64,000 nt of DNA from Solicola gregarius (lineage in GTDB: Bacteria > Actinomycetota > Actinomycetes > Propionibacteriales > Nocardioidaceae): positions 3,534,001-3,598,000 of the forward strand of contig NZ_CP094970.1 in assembly GCF_025790165.1 (NCBI RefSeq), in the 5' to 3' direction. Every line of letters begins with the position of its first letter. Positions within the stretch are counted from its first letter, which is position 1. This document shows, one piece after another, positions 3,099-48,693 of the stretch. The notes below the pieces were generated by a model. It was not told the DNA's origin. It did not search any database and saw only the letters and a list, made by a program, of their open reading frames with translations. The position numbers were made by a program, and so were the translations under genes.

Positions 3099-6069
3099 GT
3101 GTCACAGCGACGCGCCGGTACTCGTACGTCCCGCCATATCGTCGCCGTCGCGTCGGCGACGGCGCTGATCGCTGGCCTTGCCGGAGCGACGCCGCTCACG
3201 GCCGCCGCCTCCTCCGACCCCACCTTCGACGACGCCAACGGATTCCGTGCCGGCGACTACGTCGTCGTCATGGCAGGAGAGCCGGCGGCGGCGTACGCGG
3301 GTGGTGCCGACGGATACCGCCGGACCGCCGCGCGTGGCCGGCAGACGTACGACTCGTCGACCCGCGCCGCGGAGCGCTACACCGCCCACCTGCGCGACCG
3401 GCAGGACGAGGCGGTCGCGTCCGTCGGCGCCGACGCGTTCTACAACTACACGACCGCGCTCAACGGCTTCGCCGCAGAGCTGACCGCCGATCAGGCGGCC
3501 CAGCTCGCCCATCGCTCGGACGTGCTCGCCGTCGTCAAGGACGACATCCGCAAGCTCGACACCTGGCACACGCCCGACCTGCTCAAGCTGAGCGGATCGG
3601 GTGGTGTCTGGCGCCGGCTCGGGGGAGGGAGCGCGAAGGACGGAGCCGGCAAGGGCACGGTCATCGGGATCGTCGACAGCGGGGTCGACTCCGACAGCGC
3701 GTCGTTCGCCGCGACCGGCGGTCACGTCTCGGATCGGTGGAACGGCGTCTGCGCCGAGAGTGAGGACGACGACCCGGGCGCCGACTTCGAGTGCAACGAC
3801 AAGCTGATCGGCGGCCGCTACTTCCACGAGGGCTACGGCGAGGTGTACGACGGCGAGTTCCTCTCGCCCGAAGACCTCGGCGGCCACGGCAGCCACACGG
3901 CATCGACGGCGGCCGGCAACAGCGGCGTCGCGGCATCTTCCGGCGGCATCGACTTCGGCGAGATCTCCGGCATGGCGCCGGCCGCGAAGGTCGCGTCGTA
4001 CAAGGTGTGCTGGGAAGAAGAGGATCCCGAGGCCGGCGGGTGCACGGGCAGCGACTCCGTCGCGGCGGTCGACGCCGCGGTCAAGGACGGCGTCGACGCC
4101 ATCAACTACTCGATCTCGGGCGCGCTCGACAACCCGGTCGACCCGGTCGAGCTCGCGTTCATGTACGCCGCCGACGCCGGTGTATTCGTCTCGACCTCTG
4201 CCGGCAACAGCGGTCCGGACATCACGACCGTCGCGCATCCGAGCCCGTGGCTCACGACCGTCGCCAACGCCACGCACTACCTCTACGAGGGCACCCTCGA
4301 AGTTCGGCAACGGACACGCGTACGTCGGTGCCTCGGTCAGCACCCAGGACGTACCTGAGGCGCCGGTCGTGACGTCTCGATCGGCGAAGGCGTCCGATGC
4401 GAGCGACGAGGACGCGGCGCTCTGCCTGCCCGACACGCTCGATACGGCCGCGGCGGAGGGCAAGATCGTGGTCTGCGATCGAGGCGAGAACGCCCGCGTC
4501 GAGAAGAGCCAGGTCGTGGCCGATGCGGGCGGCGTCGGCGCCGTCATCACGAACGTGCCCGGCAGTGCCGACGACACCGTCGCCGACATGCACCCGATCC
4601 CGACGATCCACCTACGCGCGGAGTTCCGCGACGACGTGTACGCCGACGCGGCTCGCGACGGCGCGGCGGCCGCGATCCAGGCCCGCGTGAACAAGGGCAC
4701 GACGACCACGCCGCCGCCGGCGATCAACAGCGGCTCGAGCCGAGGGCCGTCGCTGGCCGCCGAAGGCGACCTGCTGAAGCCCGATATCGCCGCGCCGGGC
4801 ACCGACGTACTCGCGGCGGTTGCGCCGGAACGCAACAACGACGAGGACTTCGCGCTCTACACCGGCACGTCGATGTCGTCGCCGCACATCGCCGGGCTGG
4901 CGTTGCTGTTCAAGCAGAAGTACCCGGACTGGTCGCCGATGGAGATCAAGTCGGCGATGATGACCACCGCGCGGGACCTCAACGGCGACCGCAGCCCGTT
5001 CAGCCAGGGCGCCGGGTTCGTGACGCCGCGACGGTTCTTCGATCCCGGCCTCGTCCTCGACAGCGACTTCGACGACTGGACCGCGTACCTCGCCGGTCAG
5101 GGTGTCACGTACGCCGATGGCACACCGATCTCGGACACTAGGCGCAAGGCGTCCAATACCAATACGCCGTCGATCGCGATCAACAACTTCGCCGGTCGCG
5201 AGGCGGTCACCCGTACGGTCACGAACGTCGACGACTCCGCCTCGACGTACACCGTGGACACCCGTGGCCTGAAGGGCATCAAGGTCACGGCAACGCCGGC
5301 GTCGTTCACCATCGCACCCGGCGCGACGCAGCGCGTACGCCTGAAGTTCGAGCGTAGGAAGGCGGCGTTGGGCGCGTACGTGAGCGGCAACGTCGTGTTC
5401 GCGGACGGCTCACATCGGGTTCGGGTGCCCGTCGTCGCCAAGCCGTCTGCACTGCAGGCACCGGATTCGGTACGCGTCGCGACGAGCACGTTGGTCACGA
5501 CGGTCGCCGGCGTACGCGGCACGCTCGCGCCGCGGGTTCGTGGCCTCGTGCCGGCGCGTGACACCGCCGGCGAGGCGGAGAGCACCGAGCGGGGAGACTT
5601 CGACCCGAACGACGAGCGCAACTACGTGCAGACCATCACCGCAACCGAGGCCACGAAGGCGATGCGATTTGAGACGATCCCGGACTTTGCGGCCGACGAC
5701 CTGGACCTTTACGTGTACGGCCCCGACGGCAAGCCGGTCGCCGAGTCGGCCACCGGCGGGTCCGACGAGTCGGCGACCGTCGCCAAACCGAAGGCGGGCA
5801 AGTACTACGTGTTCGTGCAGGCGTGGTCGACGCACGGCGACGCGGCCAAGACGTCGTTCACGCTGCGCTCGTACAACGTCGGCTCTCAGGCGAACGGCAA
5901 CCTGGCGATCAGGCCGAAGAAGCAGCAGGTGGGCCTCGCCGAGACGAGTTCCTGGCGGTTGCGTGCGGCGAAGCTGGCCAAGGGCACCTCGTACCTCGGC
6001 GTGATCGACTGGCAGAAGGCCGGGGCGAGCGAGGCGCTCGCCAAGACGTACGTCACCGCCCAACGCTGA
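3099..6069 (+). pseudogene. Secreted S8 family serine peptidase (subtilase), frameshifted
   Basis: Exported subtilisin-type protease of about 989 residues once one extra base is removed. Start is GTG at 3099, with AGAGGGG 8 bases before it. Order: signal peptide (hydrophobic stretch ending near TPLTAAAS), inhibitor-like propeptide (GDYVVVMAGEP...), catalytic Asp in IGIVDSGVD (~3673), catalytic His in GHGSHTAST (~3888), a PA-type insert (GKIVVCDRGENA), catalytic Ser in GTSMSSPHIAG (codon 4870-4872), a fibronectin-III-like domain, and a C-terminal pre-peptidase-like domain (DLDLYVYGPDGK). The frame breaks at ...YEGTL/KFGNGHAYVG: base 4299 (G) is one too many between CTC and AAG. In this sequence translation stops at 4358, leaving the protein without its Ser. 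It may be a true mutation or a sequence error. Confidence 0.85.
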
Positions 6070-6162
6070 GGAGAGGATTCTGGCCCTGTGAGGAGAGAAA
6101 TCCGGCCCGGCAGCCGGGCCGGATTTCTCTCCTCACAGGGCCAGAATCCTCTCCTCAGCGTT
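6062..6162. terminator. Perfect 50-nt inverted repeat between convergent genes (element A, copy 1)
   Basis: Bases 6062-6111 are exactly complementary to 6113-6162, with a single A at the centre. Each arm holds two related units of the form TGAGGAGAGxATTCTGGCCC. The left arm contains the stop codon of the S8 protease, and the right arm overlaps the stop of valS. It can act as a bidirectional factor-independent terminator, although there is no T-tract. Related copies are at 15217-15316 and 42475-42602. Confidence 0.85.
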
Positions 6163-15216: not shown

Positions 15217-15316
15217 ACGGTGAGGAGAGGATTCTGGCCCGGTGAGGAGAGAATCCGAGCCGCCTGATCGGGTACGAGATTCTCTCCCCACCGGGCCAGA
15301 ACTCTCTCCTCACCGT
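15217..15316. terminator. Long inverted repeat between convergent genes (element A, copy 2)
   Basis: Arms 15217-15255 and 15278-15316 (39 nt, three mismatches) surround a 22-nt loop. Each arm contains two units GGTGAGGAGAG...ATTCTGGCCC, as in the repeat at 6062. It starts right after the ndk stop, and its last base is shared with the stop codon of the convergent gene. A bidirectional terminator role is inferred from position. Confidence 0.75.
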
Positions 15317-22453: not shown

Positions 22454-22497
22454 TGCGCACAACCAACCATCAGGGCGTCCTCAAGACAACCCGATAT

Positions 22498-22563
22498 CCC
22501 GCCGAGGTACGTCGTCCTGCCAATAGGGACACCCGAATCGGCGGGACGACGTACCTCGGCGGG
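22498..22563. repeat. Inverted repeat element B, copy 1
   Basis: Arms 22498-22521 and 22540-22563 (24 nt, one mismatch) read CCCGCCGAGGTACGTCGTCC and complement. A further GACAACC/GGTTGTC pair lies outside at 22485-22491 and 22570-22576. The arm sequence is shared with 25433-25494, with a few changes. It lies between divergent genes, so it is not a simple terminator. Confidence 0.7.
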
Positions 22564-22567
22564 AGGG

Positions 22568-22864
22568 GTGGTTGTCAGCGGCGACGACTCCTGGCTGGCG
22601 ATGCCGCCCGCTCCACACGAGTACCACGGCACCGAGGCCATCGCCGAGTTCCTGCGGGTCAGCATCGCCGGGCGCGCCGACCGCCGGATCGAGCTCAGAC
22701 CGACCCGGGCGAACGGCCAACCCGCGTACACGTGCTACCTGGAGTCGCCGGACGGCACGGCGATGGACCCGTCCGGGGTCATCGTGCTCACCCTTGCGGC
22801 CGGCCGGATCCGGGGTATCACCCGATTCCTCGATCCCACGCTGCCGGTGATCTTCGCCGGCTGA
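22568..22864 (+). pseudogene. C-terminal SnoaL-like domain fragment of an ECF sigma factor (SigG/SigX5 type)
   Basis: About 98 residues reading AMPPAPHEYHGTEAIAEFL, LRPTRANGQPAYTCYL and GRIRGITRFLDPTLP. These match the C-terminal SnoaL-like domain carried by the large ECF sigma factors related to SigG/SigX5. The sigma-2 and sigma-4 regions are missing: homology begins within a few codons of the right arm of inverted repeat B, and no suitable sequence lies upstream. GTG at 22568 could still start a short free-standing protein. I read it as a remnant left after deletion or rearrangement at the repeat. Confidence 0.65.
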
Positions 22865-25361: not shown

Positions 25362-25432
25362 AATAAAGGTAATCGTCAAGCAGGAACTCTGTGACGCCCG
25401 TCACTCCGGTCCGCGTACGTCGCCGTACAGCT

Positions 25433-25494
25433 CGCCGAGGTACGGCTTCCCGCCAATGAGAGCGCTTCTATTGGCGGGAAGCCGTACCTCGGCG
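25433..25494. repeat. Inverted repeat element B, copy 2
   Basis: Arms 25433-25457 and 25470-25494 are perfectly complementary over 25 nt (CGCCGAGGTACGGCTTCCCG then CCAAT) with a 12-nt loop. It shares the CCGCCGAGGTACG core and the CCAAT end with the repeat at 22498-22563. It sits in the divergent spacer between the MFS gene and mreB. Confidence 0.75.
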
Positions 25495-25594
25495 GGATCG
25501 GCGGCGGGTACGTAGGCCCCACACGCAACATGCGTCACGCCCGCCGCGTGCGTGTCGCCCGAGATTCCGGGGGTACGCGGCTTAGCCTGACGGC

Positions 25595-30171: not shown

Positions 30172-31378
30172 TGCACCGGTCGATGGCCGCCAAGAAGAAT
30201 CGTGACGACACGATCTGGTCGGGTCTCGACTGGGTGCTGATCGCCGCCGTCGCAGCTCTCACGGTCATCGGGGCACTGCTCGTGTGGTCGGCGACGTCCG
30301 GTCGCGATGAGCTCACCGGCGGCGACAGCACGACGTACCTCTCGAAGCAGGCGGTCAACATCGTCGTCGGTGCGGTGCTGGGTGGTCTGGTCGCGGCCAC
30401 CGACCACCGGTGGTTGCGGGTATGGGCGCCGGCGGTCTACCTCGGCTCCATCATCGGCCTGTTGCTGATCTACGTGCCGTCGATCGGGGCGACGATCAAC
30501 GGATCGCACTCCTGGCTGCTGATCGGCGGCCTGTCGATCCAGCCCGCGGAGTTCGCGAAGTTCGGCGTCATCGTCGGTATGGCGCTGGTGCTCGCCGAGC
30601 GTACGGAGGGCGGCAACCGCGACGGCGTACGCGCCTCGGATCTCGTCCCTGCTCTCGTGATCGCCGCCGTTCCTGCTGCGCTGATCCTCGCGCAGCCGGA
30701 CCTCGGCACGCTGATGGTGCTGATCGCCGTCGTGTTCGGCGTACTGGTCGTGGCGGGTACCCCGAAGCGCTGGCTCGCCGGGCTGCTCGTGGTCGCCGCA
30801 GGGGTGATCGGGGCGGCGATCGTCTCGGGGGTGCTTTCGAGCAGTACCAGCTCGAGCGGTTCTCGGCGTTCACCGATCCCACGCTCGATCCGAGGGGCGC
30901 CGGATACAACACGATGCAGGCGCGGATCGCGATCGGCAACGGCGGGATGTTCGGCCAGGGGCTGTTCCACGGCTCGCAGACGCAGTCGGGGTTCGTACCC
31001 GAACAGCACACGGACTTCGTGTTCACCGTCGCCGGTGAGGAGCTGGGCCTGGTCGGTGCCGGTGTGGTGATCGCGTTGTTCGCCATCATCTTGTGGCGCG
31101 GGCTGCGGATCGCCCGGAACGCACACGACTTCTTCGGCCAGCTCGCCGCGGTCGGCATCGTGGTGTGGTTCGGCTTCCAGTCGTTCCAGAACATCGGGAT
31201 GTGCCTCGGCATCATGCCGGTGACCGGCGTACCGCTGCCGTTCGTTTCGTCGGGCGGCACGTCACTGTTCGCGTCGATGATGGCGATCGGGCTGTTGCTG
31301 AACATCCACCGGCGTACCGAGCAGCGGCACGGGCTCGGCGTGATCGTACGGTCGCGGCTGCAGCGCTCCCGCTTCTGA
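30171..31378 (+). pseudogene. rodA: Rod shape-determining protein RodA (peptidoglycan glycosyltransferase), frameshifted in this sequence
   Basis: SEDS-family polymerase that builds glycan strands for elongation with PBP2. It would be 402 residues with one base restored and has about ten hydrophobic segments. Family marks: DWVLIAAVAALTVIGALLVW, IQPAEFAKFGVIVGMA, QPDLGTLMVLIAVVF, then after the break QYQLERFSAF, AIGNGGMFGQGLF and PEQHTDFVFTVAGEELGLVG. The frame breaks at SGVL/FEQYQ: the TTT run at 30835-30837 would need one more T. As for mrdA, an error in a short homopolymer is the simplest reading. ATG at 30171 overlaps the mrdA stop and follows AAGGGGG. Confidence 0.9.
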
Positions 31379-31392
31379 CCTCCGCCCCGCAT

Positions 31393-31475
31393 CGCCGAGT
31401 CGTCGGTCCCGCAGTGGTGAGTCGTCGGTCTTGACGTGCAGGATCGACGGCTCGGCGGTGCAACTTCGACGACTC
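31393..31475. terminator. Interleaved inverted repeat between rodA and a convergent gene (element C, copy 1)
   Basis: CGCCGAGTCGTCGGTC (31393-31408) pairs with 31442-31457 with two G-U pairs, and a second unit GAGTCGTCG (31419-31427) pairs with CGACGACTC (31467-31475). Because the units are alike, alternative pairings are possible. The right end contains the TGA of the convergent TetR gene. A bidirectional terminator is inferred. Confidence 0.6.
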
Positions 31476-32079
31476 AGCGGGAGATGAAGGTCGACTCGAA
31501 CACGATGGTCAGCCGTTCGGTCGTCTGCTCGGCCGACCATCCACAGTCGTCGAGCAGCGTTTCGATGACGTCGTTGGAGATGAGTGCGAGCAGCATGTCC
31601 GCGCCGGACTCGACGGTCCAGTGCTCCGACAGCGCGTCCTCCTCGGCGATGCGCGTCAGCAGCCGCGTACAGACGCGACGTCGGTCGCGAATCGCTGTTG
31701 CCCAGTGTGTCGCGGCACCCTCGTCGTACCTGACCGCGCGGTAGATGGCATCCGACACCGGCAGGATGCGGGGTACGAACGTCGCGAGGAACCGCGCGAA
31801 CTCGTGTAGTGCCGTTGCGGCATCAGGTGCGTCGTCGATCGGCGCCATCGCCGCCCCGATGTCCTCGACCTCGTTGACGTAGTCGAACAACGCGTTGACC
31901 AGCTCGGGCTGCGACGCGAAGTGCAGGTAGACCGCCCGGCGCGACACTCCCGCGCGGTCGGCGACCGACGCCATCGTCATCGACTCGGGTCCGGCCTCCT
32001 CGACCAACGTCCGGGCGGCGTCCAGCAGGGCGGTTCGGGTACGCCTGCCGCGCGCGTTGACCGGTTCGGCTCGAGACAT
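31474..32079 (-). CDS. TetR family transcriptional regulator
   Basis: A 201-residue repressor. The N-terminal helix-turn-helix (about 12-60) reads RTRTALLDAARTLVEEAG, MASVADRAGVSRRAVYLHF and a variable ligand domain follows. It is divergent from an MFS exporter gene with a shared 103-base spacer holding a dyad, the classic layout of a local repressor. ATG at 32079 is preceded by AGAAGG at 8 bases; a GTG three codons earlier is less well placed. Its stop lies inside repeat C. Confidence 0.92.
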   Translation of the reverse strand: MSRAEPVNARGRRTRTALLDAARTLVEEAGPESMTMASVADRAGVSRRAVYLHFASQPELVNALFDYVNEVEDIGAAMAPIDDAPDAATALHEFARFLATFVPRILPVSDAIYRAVRYDEGAATHWATAIRDRRRVCTRLLTRIAEEDALSEHWTVESGADMLLALISNDVIETLLDDCGWSAEQTTERLTIVFESTFISR

Positions 32080-32134
32080 CGAGAGCACCTTCTCATCGCT
32101 GTGCCGGCGAGTCCAGGAAATAACTTCACGATGT

Positions 32135-32157
32135 GTGCAGTTGTACGTAAACTACAC
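32135..32157. promoter_or_regulatory. Candidate TetR operator between divergent genes
   Basis: GTGCAGTT (32135-32142) and AACTACAC (32150-32157) are inverted with one mismatch around GTACGTA. This lies between the TetR gene and the MFS gene, in an AT-richer stretch than the flanks. Confidence 0.5.
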
Positions 32158-32182
32158 GAGTTGTGAACTTACTGGAGGGGTC

Positions 32183-33586
32183 GTGAACACGAGAGATACG
32201 CGCACCGAAGAGCCACCCAATCGCTGGTCGGTCGTCGTCGCGATGGGGCTCGTCATCTTCATGGCGACCCTCGACATGAGTGTCGTCAATGTGGCGCTGC
32301 CGGTGATCGAGGACGAATACGGCGTCGGTACCGAGGCGAGCCAATGGGTGATCCTCGGCTACCTGCTGCCGCTGATCGCCGTGACCCTGCCGAGCGGGCG
32401 CTATCTGGACCGCGCGGGTACGCGGGCGACGATGCTGCTCTCCGTCGGCGGGTTCGCGCTGAGCAGCGTCGCCGTCGGGTTGGCGCCGAGCCTCGGGCTC
32501 ATCATCGGGGCGCGCGCGGCGCAAGGCGCGTTCGCGGGAGTGCTGTTCGCGCTGCTTCCCGTCGTCGTCACCGGAGCCGTACGGCCGCAGGCTCGGGGCC
32601 GCGCGATGGCGGTCGCGATCACGCTCGGCCCGCTGGGCTCCGTTGCCGGCCCGGTCGTCGGAGGCGTCCTCGTCGACACCTGGGGATGGCCCTGGATCTT
32701 CTGGGTCAACCTGCCGGTCGCGCTCGCGGTCATGTACGTCGCGGCGACCCGCATGGATGCCGACGGCGGACTCAACAGCCCGGCCCGGTCGCTGTACGTC
32801 GAGACCGCGGTCGTCGGTTTCGCCGGCTCCGCGGTCCTGCTCGGGTTGACGTTCGCCGCCGACGGACAGCTCGCGTGGCTCGGACTCACGGTCGTCGCGG
32901 GCCCGGCGCTGTTCGCGTGGTACCGCATACCGGGCAGTCGTACGACGATCGGGGCACTGCGCCGAACGACGGTCGCGTACGCCCACCTCGGGCTCGCCGC
33001 GGCCGCGACAGCGAACGCCGCGCTGCTCTTCCTGATGCCGTTCTTCACCATGCGGGTGCTGGACATGAGCGCCGCGGAGACCGGGCTCGCCATTCTCGCG
33101 TTCCCGGCGGCGACCGCCGTTGTCGGTCCGCTCGCGGGAGTTCTCACCGACGGGTGGGGCGCGGCGCGTACGGCGGCCGTTGGTAGCGCGATTCTCGTCG
33201 CCGGGCTCGCATCGCTCGTCCCACTGTCGGCGAGCTGGTCGGCGGCGGACATCGCCTGGCGCCTCGCGGTGACCGGGGCCGGAATGGGCCTGTTCTTCGG
33301 GCCCAACATGACGCAGCTGATGGCGGCGGCGCCACCCGAGCTCGTCGGCACGGTCGGCGCGACCAGCAGCTTGGTCCGCGAGCTCGGGTTCTTGCTCGGT
33401 CCGACCCTCGTCACCGCCGCGTGGACGCTCGCGGGAGACGGGGCCGCCGGCCTTCGCGTCGCGGCGGTCGTACCGGCGGCGATCGGCGTCGGGGCGATCG
33501 GCGCCGCGGTGTTGCTGCTGCGACCCACCCGCTCGGCACAGGTTCCAGAAGAGGCAAGTCAGAAACCAATGGAGGAGATCCGATGA
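32183..33586 (+). CDS. MFS transporter, DHA2 family drug exporter-like
   Basis: A 467-residue exporter with 14 predicted membrane segments. It has DHA2-type marks: FMATLDMSVVNVALPVIED at TM1, WVILGYLLPLIAVTLPSGRY in TM2, GARAAQGAFAGVLFALLPVV in TM4 and GPLGSVAGPVVGGVLVDTWG in TM5 (motif C). GTG at 32183 has GGAGGGG before it. It overlaps wrbA by four bases (ATGA). The neighbouring TetR probably represses both. The substrate is unknown. Confidence 0.92.
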   Translation: MNTRDTRTEEPPNRWSVVVAMGLVIFMATLDMSVVNVALPVIEDEYGVGTEASQWVILGYLLPLIAVTLPSGRYLDRAGTRATMLLSVGGFALSSVAVGLAPSLGLIIGARAAQGAFAGVLFALLPVVVTGAVRPQARGRAMAVAITLGPLGSVAGPVVGGVLVDTWGWPWIFWVNLPVALAVMYVAATRMDADGGLNSPARSLYVETAVVGFAGSAVLLGLTFAADGQLAWLGLTVVAGPALFAWYRIPGSRTTIGALRRTTVAYAHLGLAAAATANAALLFLMPFFTMRVLDMSAAETGLAILAFPAATAVVGPLAGVLTDGWGAARTAAVGSAILVAGLASLVPLSASWSAADIAWRLAVTGAGMGLFFGPNMTQLMAAAPPELVGTVGATSSLVRELGFLLGPTLVTAAWTLAGDGAAGLRVAAVVPAAIGVGAIGAAVLLLRPTRSAQVPEEASQKPMEEIR

Positions 33587-34194
33587 CCGATGTCAACGCC
33601 ACGATCGTCTACTACAGCTCGACCGGAAGCGTGCATGCGCTCGCCGAGGCCGCTGCGGAGGGCGCCGAGAAGGCGGGCGCGCGCGTACGACTGCGCAAGG
33701 TCGCCGAGCTGGCACCCGCAGAGGCGATCGCCGAGCATGACCACTGGCAGGCGCACGTCGAGCGTACGAACGACGTCGCCGAGGTGCGCATCGAGGACGT
33801 CGAGTGGGCCGATGCCGTGCTGTTTGGTACGCCGACGCGGTACGGCATGGTCGCGAGCCAGCTGAAGCAGTTCATCGACTCGACGGGATCGTCGTGGCGC
33901 GAAGGGCGCCTCGCGGACAAGGTCTACGGTGCGTTCGTCTCGACGGCTACGGCGCACGGTGGTCACGAGAGCACCCTGCTGTCGCTGTACACCGTCTTCG
34001 CCCATTGGGGCGGCGTGATCGTGCCGCCGGGATACACCGACCCGATCCAGTTCGCGACCGGAAACCCGTACGGCGCCTCGCACCTGGCCGTCCAGGGCGC
34101 CGGCCCGGGCGAGGTCGAGCTGGACGCCGCCCGCTACCAGGCACGCCGCGCGGTCGAGACCGCCGCGGCCCTGCGCTCCGGCCGCCGAACCTGA
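33583..34194 (+). CDS. wrbA: NAD(P)H:quinone oxidoreductase, WrbA-type flavodoxin-fold protein
   Basis: A 203-residue flavoprotein of the WrbA family that reduces quinones by two electrons, avoiding semiquinone radicals. FMN phosphate loop: VYYSSTGSVHALAEAAAEGA; further WrbA marks are WADAVLFGTPTRYGMVASQL, STATAHGGHESTLLSLY and PPGYTDP. The ATG overlaps the MFS stop (ATGA) and follows GGAGGAG. Its coupling to an exporter under a TetR repressor suggests a response to quinone-like or redox-active compounds. Confidence 0.92.
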   Translation: MTDVNATIVYYSSTGSVHALAEAAAEGAEKAGARVRLRKVAELAPAEAIAEHDHWQAHVERTNDVAEVRIEDVEWADAVLFGTPTRYGMVASQLKQFIDSTGSSWREGRLADKVYGAFVSTATAHGGHESTLLSLYTVFAHWGGVIVPPGYTDPIQFATGNPYGASHLAVQGAGPGEVELDAARYQARRAVETAAALRSGRRT

Positions 34195-34206
34195 CCCCCG
34201 ATCACC

Positions 34207-34264
34207 GAGTCGTCGGTCCCGCACCGCCGACCCAGTCAGTCTTGCAGTGCAGGATCGACGACTC
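34207..34264. terminator. Inverted repeat between convergent genes (element C, copy 2)
   Basis: GAGTCGTCGGTCCCGCAC (34207-34224) pairs with 34247-34264 over 18 nt, with one G-U pair and one mismatch. The unit is the same as at 31393-31475. The right arm holds the TGA of the convergent MFS gene. Probable bidirectional terminator. Confidence 0.65.
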
Positions 34265-35486
34265 AGCGGAGGGGAGGGAGGGTGTCCTCGAACCAGCGCG
34301 GCCGGGCGAACGCCAGCCCGATCAGCATCAGCAACGATGCACCGGCGACAGCGACGAGCGGCGCCGTCCACGAGTCGGTCGCGTCATGCAGGAGTCCCAC
34401 GCCGAACGGGCCGATCGCGGCGAGCAGGTAGCCGACCGACTGCACGAACCCCGACAGTGCCGCGGTGCCCGCCGGTGTGTGCGTACGCAGGCCGATCATC
34501 GACAGCACCCACGGGAACGCGCCGCCACCGAGGCCGAGCAGCACAGCCCAGAGCCACGGCACCGTCTCGGCCGCGGCCATGACGCCGATCCAGCCGGCCG
34601 CGGAGAGCAGCGCGAAGCCGACCGGCAGCAGCGCCTGGTTGGGCAGCCGCCGCGACAGCTGCGGCAGCAGCAACGCGGTCGGGATGCCGAGGGCCTGCAC
34701 GAGACCGATCATGACGCCTGCCGTCGCCCGATGGAGCCCGGCGTCGGTGTACGCCTGCGCGAGCCAGCCGAGCACCACGTACGCATTGGACGACTGCACG
34801 CCGAAGAAGACGGCCATGGCCCAGGCCATCGGCGAGCGCGCGACGGCTCGGAACGGCACCTTCTTGCGCAGGGTGGTCGATGGATGCACGTCGTGGCCGA
34901 GCATGCCGAGCCACGGAAGCAAGCAGACCGCGGCCAGGATTCCCCACGCGAGCAGGCCGGCGCGCCAGCCGCCGGCGTTGTCGGCGATCGGGACGGTCAG
35001 TGCCGGCGGCAGTGCGGCGCCGACGAGCAGGGCGGAGGTGTAGACGGCGGTGATCGTGCCGACCCGGTCGGGGAAGTGGCGCTTGACGAGCGGCGGCAGG
35101 ATGACGTTTCCCGTCGCGGCGCCGGCGAGCGCGAGCGTCGTCGCCAGCATGAACGGCACGGTCGAGTCGACGAACGCGCGTACGACCATGCCGATGGTCA
35201 GCGCCGCGAGCGAGGCGGCCGCCGTGCGGTGCAGGCCGAGCGTACGCGCGATGGTGTTTGCGGTCGCGCCGAAGAGCGCGAAGCTCAGGACGGGCAGCGT
35301 TGTCAGCAACCCGGCGGTCGCGCCCGACATCGAGAGCGCGGGGATGATCGCGTCGAGTGACACGCCGACGCTGGAGACGACGCTCCGCAGGTTCAGAGCG
35401 AGCGCGATGAGGCAGACGAGGGCGAGAAGGCGATGCCCATGGCGCTCGCGACTCGCCGGGGAAGATGCCACGCTCTCATGGTGCAC
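34263..35486 (-). CDS. MFS transporter, CynX/NimT family
   Basis: About 407 residues with 12 hydrophobic segments, of the cyanate/nitroimidazole-type major facilitator group. Typical are LLALVCLIALALNLRSVVSS at TM1, LLTTLPVLSFALFGATANTI in TM2 and GNVILPPLVKRHFPDRVGTI in TM4. The start is uncertain: GTG at 35486 or GTG at 35471, neither with a strong ribosome site; longer forms add non-membrane, low-complexity sequence. The physiological substrate is not predictable. It is convergent with wrbA and divergent from rne. Confidence 0.88.
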   Translation of the reverse strand: MHHESVASSPASRERHGHRLLALVCLIALALNLRSVVSSVGVSLDAIIPALSMSGATAGLLTTLPVLSFALFGATANTIARTLGLHRTAAASLAALTIGMVVRAFVDSTVPFMLATTLALAGAATGNVILPPLVKRHFPDRVGTITAVYTSALLVGAALPPALTVPIADNAGGWRAGLLAWGILAAVCLLPWLGMLGHDVHPSTTLRKKVPFRAVARSPMAWAMAVFFGVQSSNAYVVLGWLAQAYTDAGLHRATAGVMIGLVQALGIPTALLLPQLSRRLPNQALLPVGFALLSAAGWIGVMAAAETVPWLWAVLLGLGGGAFPWVLSMIGLRTHTPAGTAALSGFVQSVGYLLAAIGPFGVGLLHDATDSWTAPLVAVAGASLLMLIGLAFARPRWFEDTLPPLR

Positions 35487-35542
35487 GATGCAACCAGTCG
35501 GCGGCGCCCCGGGCGCTGCGTTCGGGATCCGCCGTGCGCGTG

Positions 35543-35551
35543 TGCGATACT
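35543..35551 (+). promoter_or_regulatory. Candidate rne promoter (extended -10)
   Basis: TGCGATACT combines an extended TGn with GATACT. It implies a transcript start near 35557 and a 5' untranslated region of about 270 bases. Confidence 0.45.
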
Positions 35552-35827
35552 GATATCGGTCGTGAGGTATGGCGTACGCCGGGCCCCACGACTCGGCGAT
35601 GCCTTGGCCGAGTCGCAACGCTGCGGCTGGCTACGGCGGCGACGAGACTGCACCCGACCGCGACACATTGCCCCGCGAGAGCGTGGCGTGTCGACCGCGG
35701 CGGCGCACGTCGCCGAGTGACACCGTGGGTTTCGCCGCGAACGCAAGCTTGCGCTCGGCAGCCACCACGGCCGCGAGCGACCGACACGGTTCCCGTGAGG
35801 CGTACGCCCGGGAGCGAAGGAGAGCAG
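35552..35827 (+). promoter_or_regulatory. Long structured 5' untranslated region of rne
   Basis: The 341-base stretch from 35487 to 35827 holds no convincing gene. It contains a perfect 9-bp hairpin CGACTCGGC/GCCGAGTCG (35589-35597 and 35607-35615), the palindrome CGCAAGCTTGCG, and a wider GCCGAG/CTCGGC pair around it. Long leaders used for autoregulation are known for RNase E genes; that role here is inferred. Confidence 0.5.
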
Positions 35828-42474: not shown

Positions 42475-42602
42475 CGGTGAGGAGAGAGTTCTGGCCCTGT
42501 GAGGAGAGAATCGTGGTCCGGTGACGAGAGGGTTTCGGCCGCTGTTCGGCCGCCGCTCGGCCAGAACTCTCTCGCGATAGGGCCAGAACTCTCTCCTCAC
42601 CG
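42475..42602. repeat. Compound inverted repeat upstream of proA (element A, copy 3)
   Basis: Outer arms 42475-42498 and 42579-42602 pair perfectly over 24 nt (unit CGGTGAGGAGAGAGTTCTGG). Inside are further degenerate units: GTGAGGAGAGAATC, GTGACGAGAGGGTTTCGGCC and, inverted, GGCCAGAACTCTCTCGC. So this copy holds about three units on the left and two on the right. It lies between two genes of the same direction, just before the proA promoter. Confidence 0.75.
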
Positions 42603-48633: not shown

Positions 48634-48651
48634 GTAGGTCGTACGCACGAA

Positions 48652-48676
48652 GGGCCGTTCCCGCTGGGAACGGCCC
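48652..48676 (+). terminator. Terminator between SulP and arylsulfatase genes
   Basis: GGGCCGTTCCC (48652-48662), loop GCT and GGGAACGGCCC (48666-48676) form a perfect 11-bp stem between two convergent genes. It is likely to act in both directions. Confidence 0.8.
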
Positions 48677-48693
48677 ATCGCGGCTACTTCCTG

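Follow-up and report, generated by a model that had tools for sequence, protein, structure and literature searches.

Described systems of gene-end repeats

REP-like repeats, most familiar from Proteobacteria, are associated with RAYT transposases. The MIRU repeats of Mycobacterium are actinobacterial intergenic tandem repeats that overlap the stop or start codons of neighboring genes. MIRUs are longer, direct tandem repeats located within operons.

REPs with GTAG or CGTC tags are short dispersed palindromes located downstream of genes in convergent or unidirectional gaps, and the ends of GTAG REPs often provide the TAG stop codon of the flanking genes (Di Nocera et al., 2013; PMC3733652). The word Actinobacteria is missing from the main text of that paper. 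For REPINs, two inverted repeats forming one hairpin are the apparent replicating unit, and REPIN families are thought to co-evolve with the mobilizing protein (PLoS Genet 2011; PMC3116915).

In this study, two palindromes, herein referred to as C-type, were analyzed in a window of 64,000 nucleotides from Solicola gregarius (positions 3534001-3598000 of the 4.92 Mb one-contig genome). Both are probably members of a dispersed, non-coding family of REP/REPIN-like palindromes. A literature search revealed no account of such repeats in Nocardioidaceae.

Two C-type palindromes in the analyzed window

The C-type palindromes occupy positions 31393-31479 and 34203-34268, each inside a convergent gap. 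Locus 1 lies between an FtsW-like gene (plus strand, stop at 31378) and a TetR gene (minus strand), and locus 2 between a WrbA-like gene (plus strand, stop at 34194) and an MFS gene (minus strand); these gene names were read from sequence features, without a database search. An earlier note on this DNA had described inverted repeats at both loci, with a right arm containing the stop codon of the convergent gene. The inverted repeats are real, and the ends of the open reading frames confirm that the TetR gene at one locus and the MFS gene at the other terminate with the TGA of CGCTGAGTCGTCG in the right arm. The following features were found at the two loci:

31393..31479, unstranded: C-type element of locus 1, with 22-bp units in heads-out order (two forward, two reversed); no array at this site in the congener G001
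31393..31414, plus: locus 1 unit 1, CGCCGAGTCGTCGGTCCCGCAG
31415..31436, plus: locus 1 unit 2, TGGTGAGTCGTCGGTCTTGACG, 22 bp after unit 1
31436..31457, minus: locus 1 unit 3, reversed, CGCCGAGCCGTCGATCCTGCAC
31458..31479, minus: locus 1 unit 4, reversed, CGCTGAGTCGTCGAAGTTGCAC, with the TGA that ends the TetR gene
31474..31476, minus: TetR stop codon TGA, inside the arm (ORF 31474-32088)
34203..34268, unstranded: C-type element of locus 2, a forward and a reversed unit separated by a degenerate center of 22 bp; diverged C-type array in the same gap of G001
34203..34224, plus: locus 2 forward unit, CACCGAGTCGTCGGTCCCGCAC
34247..34268, minus: locus 2 reversed unit, CGCTGAGTCGTCGATCCTGCAC, with the TGA that ends the MFS gene
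34263..34265, minus: MFS stop codon TGA, inside the arm (ORF 34263-35618)

The 19-nt unit TGAGTCGTCGRTCCTGCAC has five matches in the window at up to three mismatches, all of them at the two C loci, against 0.09 expected. The short core GAGTCGTCG is unspecific, with 14 matches in the window against 5.1 expected; nine of these are outside the C loci and several are intragenic. A 13-mer with one mismatch yielded 97 matches in the genome, mostly in apparently coding sequence, and the whole-genome pattern GAGTCGTCGRTCC with one mismatch was dropped, as it returned chiefly coding noise. A mobile cassette comprising the TetR-MFS-WrbA block between the two C elements was ruled out, as the same gene order is found in G001. 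The orthologous MFS and TetR loci of other genera carry no C array and have different neighbors; thus, they provide no outgroup for locus 1.

Anatomy of the 22-bp units and arrays

The repeats were analyzed in 1.18 Mb of the S. gregarius genome and in 1.20 Mb of G001, the sole congener compared, that is, in about a quarter of each genome, with genes called by our own script. A motif-free search for tandem periods located period 22 chiefly in convergent gaps (8 of 11 occurrences in S. gregarius and 6 of 7 in G001), against a share of these gaps of about 2-4% of the sequence. The units differ in their tails. Tail type A (CGSTGAGGAGAG..TYCYGGCC) was found only in S. gregarius, with 125 units there and 0-1 in G001. 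Tail type X (CGCTGACACGYGAGAA..ACCC) is practically restricted to G001, with 26 units there and none in S. gregarius. Tail type C is present in both species. An array at positions 945020-945070 of G001 joins a C-type and an X-type unit at a spacing of exactly 22 bp.

Neighboring units on the same strand are spaced by exactly 22 bp in 81 of 82 cases (69 of 70 in S. gregarius, 12 of 12 in G001). Like the GTAG/CGTC REPs, the repeats form several sequence families per genome, have species-specific variants and are often paired in opposite orientation. Unlike these REPs, they have CGSTGA as their fixed end, with no GTAG or CGTC tag, and their units are joined head to tail at exactly 22 bp and paired with reversed units.

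All 28 mixed-orientation A arrays are arranged heads-out, which gives an inverted-repeat hairpin as in REPINs; this palindromic arrangement between convergent genes distinguishes the 22-bp elements from MIRUs. The base preceding the unit is A at 56 of the 69 outermost A units and C at all 67 internal units, and the array length equals 97 + 22k bp within 3 bp for 25 of 28 arrays. The contrast in the preceding base, the heads-out order and these lengths indicate that the A element has ends of its own and changes in length by whole units. Its termini are ACGSTGAGG...CCTCASCGT. At matches to the tail alone, the heads are mostly CGGTGA and CGCTGA, and the outer end in the A family is (A)CGSTGA. Short length, lack of coding sequence, inverted-repeat ends, many copies and presence or absence between relatives are also features of MITEs. 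In contrast to MITEs, no target-site duplication was found at the 28 arrays. Among the genes between neighboring arrays in the sampled 1.18 Mb, no candidate for a parent insertion sequence was identified. A search of Rfam 15 gave no match above the gathering score.

Besides the C loci, three A-type elements were located in the window:

6064..6160, unstranded: A-type element, two plus two units, perfect palindrome; the plus-strand gene ends with the TGA at 6067-6069; G001 carries an X-type array at this junction
15218..15315, unstranded: A-type element; a unit begins 1 nt (left) and 0 nt (right) past the two stops
42475..42602, unstranded: A-type element in a tandem gap, unit 1 nt past the stop; absent in G001

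A stop codon within the arm had also been proposed for two other repeats, A and E. For A, the GGAGAG repeat, this holds at 6067-6069 and at further gene ends. The GGTACG hairpins at 22485-22576 and 25421-25506, which may or may not be the repeat previously called E, both lack a TGA in the arm, and one of them is located in a divergent gap. This hairpin family (CGCCGAGGTACG...CGTACCTCGGCG) has more copies near genome positions 3431918 and 3641001.

In the 384 kb around the window, where all convergent gaps were inspected, long convergent gaps are commonly occupied by hairpin repeats. Family B hairpins (GGGCATGACGTTCG...CGAACGTCATGCCC and variants) were found in many other convergent gaps, e.g., near 3374683, 3609679, and 3644390, and a similar hairpin follows the MFS gene in another genus (L039). 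Two junctions near genome positions 3420800 and 3514565 have repeats with the unit GATCTGGGCGTCCCCGGTCGCAAC in S. gregarius and another hairpin family (GTATCTATCACGCATAGCTCCAA) in G001. At 48636-48692 of the window, a convergent gap contains an inverted repeat with GGGCCGTTCCCGCTGGGAACGGCCC, outside the repeat families examined.

Position of the units relative to stop codons

At up to three mismatches, the A units in the 1.18 Mb of S. gregarius are intergenic in 123 of 125 cases and the C units in 12 of 13. The units are concentrated in convergent gaps and in the 3' gaps of tandem genes; no A, C, or X unit was found at this threshold in divergent gaps (40 kb for the A units). A position downstream of genes, in gaps between convergent or tandem genes, is shared with the GTAG/CGTC REPs.

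In total, 82 array-bearing gene ends were compared in the two species. The TGA of the first downstream unit is the stop codon of the gene at 36 of them, while a uniform distribution predicts about 2. The end of the repeat thus supplies the stop as in GTAG REPs, the codon being TGA here and TAG there. At a further 14 ends, the unit begins directly past the stop (+6), and at 11 it begins one base later (+7). The stop is TAA at 9 of the 14 ends of the +6 class, compared with approximately 4.5% of all genes, an excess that would follow from the outer AA of the element forming part of the stop.

The C-termini encoded at array-bearing ends were compared with those of array-less orthologs. They are mostly unchanged, and in the comparison with G001 this holds both with and without an array; for example, ...KREIALWFPDL* and ...RAAYRQAHPRA* are alike in S. 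gregarius and G001. Judged by these alignments, replacement of C-terminal codons by the repeat is not the general rule. In a few genes, the difference suggests that the last codon and the stop came with the element (...PIQIQR* in S. gregarius versus ...PIQISQ* in G001). The check proposed in the earlier note, an alignment with orthologs that lack the repeat, has a mixed outcome.

The TetR gene of G001 ends in CGC TGA without any array, and the two stops at this junction are one base apart (TGACTCA). The TetR stop therefore does not stem from the repeat in any simple manner. Among array-less orthologs of the ends at which the TGA of a unit is the stop, a CGSTGA end was counted by hand in 8 of 16, compared with 10.7% of all genes. 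This enrichment possibly reflects a target preference, which would agree with the fixed target around TGA proposed earlier, or a trace of lost arrays, which would look the same.

Comparison with the congener

Presence of arrays differs between the congeners at locus 1 and at other sites with A arrays. No array was found at locus 1 of G001. The junction there is also compatible with a deletion between two GAC triplets, a point against the element reading, and the difference may be either a gain or a loss. At locus 2, the corresponding gap of G001 contains a C array that has diverged, and the MFS stop falls within its arm. The earlier proposal that such elements insert or evolve at gene ends is partly supported, by the position at gene ends and the register on stops.

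Of 93 orthologous convergent junctions, 8 have 22-bp arrays in S. gregarius and G001 alike, whereas about 2 such sites would be expected by chance (Fisher p 5e-5). The S. gregarius junctions 2991773 and 3074587 have E hairpins instead of A arrays and were excluded, which strengthens this result. The tails at the 8 shared sites are A versus X at four sites, A versus C at one, C versus X at one and of the same family at two. Such swapped tails are compatible with conversion of old elements and equally with re-insertion. They also differ from what is described for REPINs, as do arms growing in 22-bp steps and the absence of RAYT.

Distribution in other genomes

The pattern CGSTGAS-N15-CGSTGAS occurs 57 times in S. 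gregarius against 2 for the reversed pattern, and 38 against 3 times in G001. It is also strongly over-represented in several further genomes of the family, and the tail differs from genome to genome; outside S. gregarius and G001, the CGSTGA head is a consequence of the search pattern. Nocardioides- and Aeromicrobium-like genomes contain period-22 arrays whose tails are again different. One array and its flank (G136, L185) match Aeromicrobium sp. 9AM (L210), a match that places the array-bearing relatives, by inference, in Nocardioidaceae. Most of the array loci that were read in other genomes are located at gene ends.

The tails agree beyond shuffles across genomes, with G at position 10, T at 15, G at 19, and C at 22; the unit versions of different genomes are therefore probably related by descent. 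In named genomes, a tail-agnostic scan for three CGCTGA heads at 22 bp confirmed the relatives in Aeromicrobium and Nocardioides. As a TGA is required by the pattern, the scan also catches tandem duplications from many phyla that span stop codons and are unrelated to the repeats. Single stop-spanning duplications of this kind were observed in Janibacter, Sphaerisporangium, Rubrivivax, and an alphaproteobacterium (L258, L224, L252, L254).

Possible explanations for the gene-end arrays

REP/REPIN-like dispersed palindromes without a RAYT transposase are the most likely explanation. The element is a pair of arms, heads out, each arm consisting of one to five tandem 22-bp units, and each unit of a fixed head, CGSTGA(G/C), and a lineage-specific tail of 15-16 nt. 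Since the outer end is formed by the head and its TGA, an arriving element could provide a stop: on landing at or just before a stop codon, its own TGA would become the stop of the gene, and on landing just past the stop, the old one would be kept. Elements would be gained, lost and lengthened in 22-bp steps, with copies kept alike within a species and tails changing between species. The element may spread as a unit via a putative factor acting in trans on the units, and binding by this factor might be reflected in the constant 22 bp, about two helical turns. An effect on termination or RNA stability, if any, would be secondary.

Three negative results count against a mobile element. The RAYT domain (Y1_Tnp, PF01797) was found in none of 11 array-rich genomes, while positive controls were found; RAYT was therefore rejected as the mobilizer, and the repeats differ in this from the GTAG/CGTC REPs. 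No transposase-like or mobilizer-like gene is located between neighboring arrays in the 1.18 Mb sampled. Inspection of the flanks of 28 arrays revealed no direct repeat, i.e., no target-site duplication.

Alternatively, the arrays could be bidirectional terminators or 3' RNA-stability hairpins, selected between convergent genes and kept alike through conversion, which we consider unlikely. Equally unlikely, in our estimate, is the associated account of the stops, by which the stop lies in the arm simply because the hairpin starts at the gene end. The hairpins are strong on both strands, with z from -2.6 to -6.6 at the two C loci and -18 in the case of the 6064 A element. Also in favor of this role, the units cluster strongly in convergent gaps and are absent from divergent ones. 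Conversion is in line with the arms of one A element being more alike than arms across loci (15.0 versus 13.97 of 16; 0 of 20000 permutations). The GC-rich hairpin is shared with intrinsic terminators, but no T-run follows the stems (none in a T-run scan). Termination without a U-run is known in actinobacteria. Orthologous junctions are, however, often array-less: the G001 gap is shorter than 45 bp at five sites with an array in S. gregarius, and 78 of 178 convergent gaps are this short. Furthermore, selection for termination leaves the exact 22-bp period, the fixed A/T termini and the species-wide copies unexplained. A terminator function of the arrays, judged by their sequences, is possible.

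Less probable still is a role of the arrays as clustered binding sites of a DNA-binding protein that works at gene ends, such as a roadblock, a nucleoid factor or a factor in replication-transcription conflict. Tails would then co-evolve with the protein, and the 22-bp period would hold the sites on one face of the helix. A period that stays at 22 and sites that are retained despite changing tails agree with this, but there is no candidate protein, many sites have a single unit or none, and the palindromic anatomy with fixed ends is better explained by an element. A purely mutational origin, by slippage and templated quasi-palindrome correction at gene ends with neither element nor function, agrees with private variants common to the arms of one locus and with the single stop-spanning duplications of many phyla, but is very improbable, as such a process cannot account for near-identical copies by the dozen at sites unrelated to one another, nor for the strict 22-bp period or the fixed outer bases.

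Implications for Nocardioidaceae

Many stop codons of these genomes fall within repeats, which should be considered in annotation. Beyond a REP/REPIN-like family as such, we tentatively propose, as a possibility less likely than the family itself, a RAYT-less repeat system of Nocardioidaceae in which gene-end sites and the 22-bp anatomy outlast the divergence of species, while the sequence of the unit is exchanged genome-wide. If this is true, an unknown, fast-diverging factor would read the 22-bp unit and drive copying or conversion, and CGSTGA stop codons would be the anchor. REP-like habits combined with a strict 22-bp module and without RAYT suggest either a second route of spreading or a selected role at gene ends, a question that sequence exchange at conserved sites in two congeners makes accessible to comparative genomics and Term-seq.
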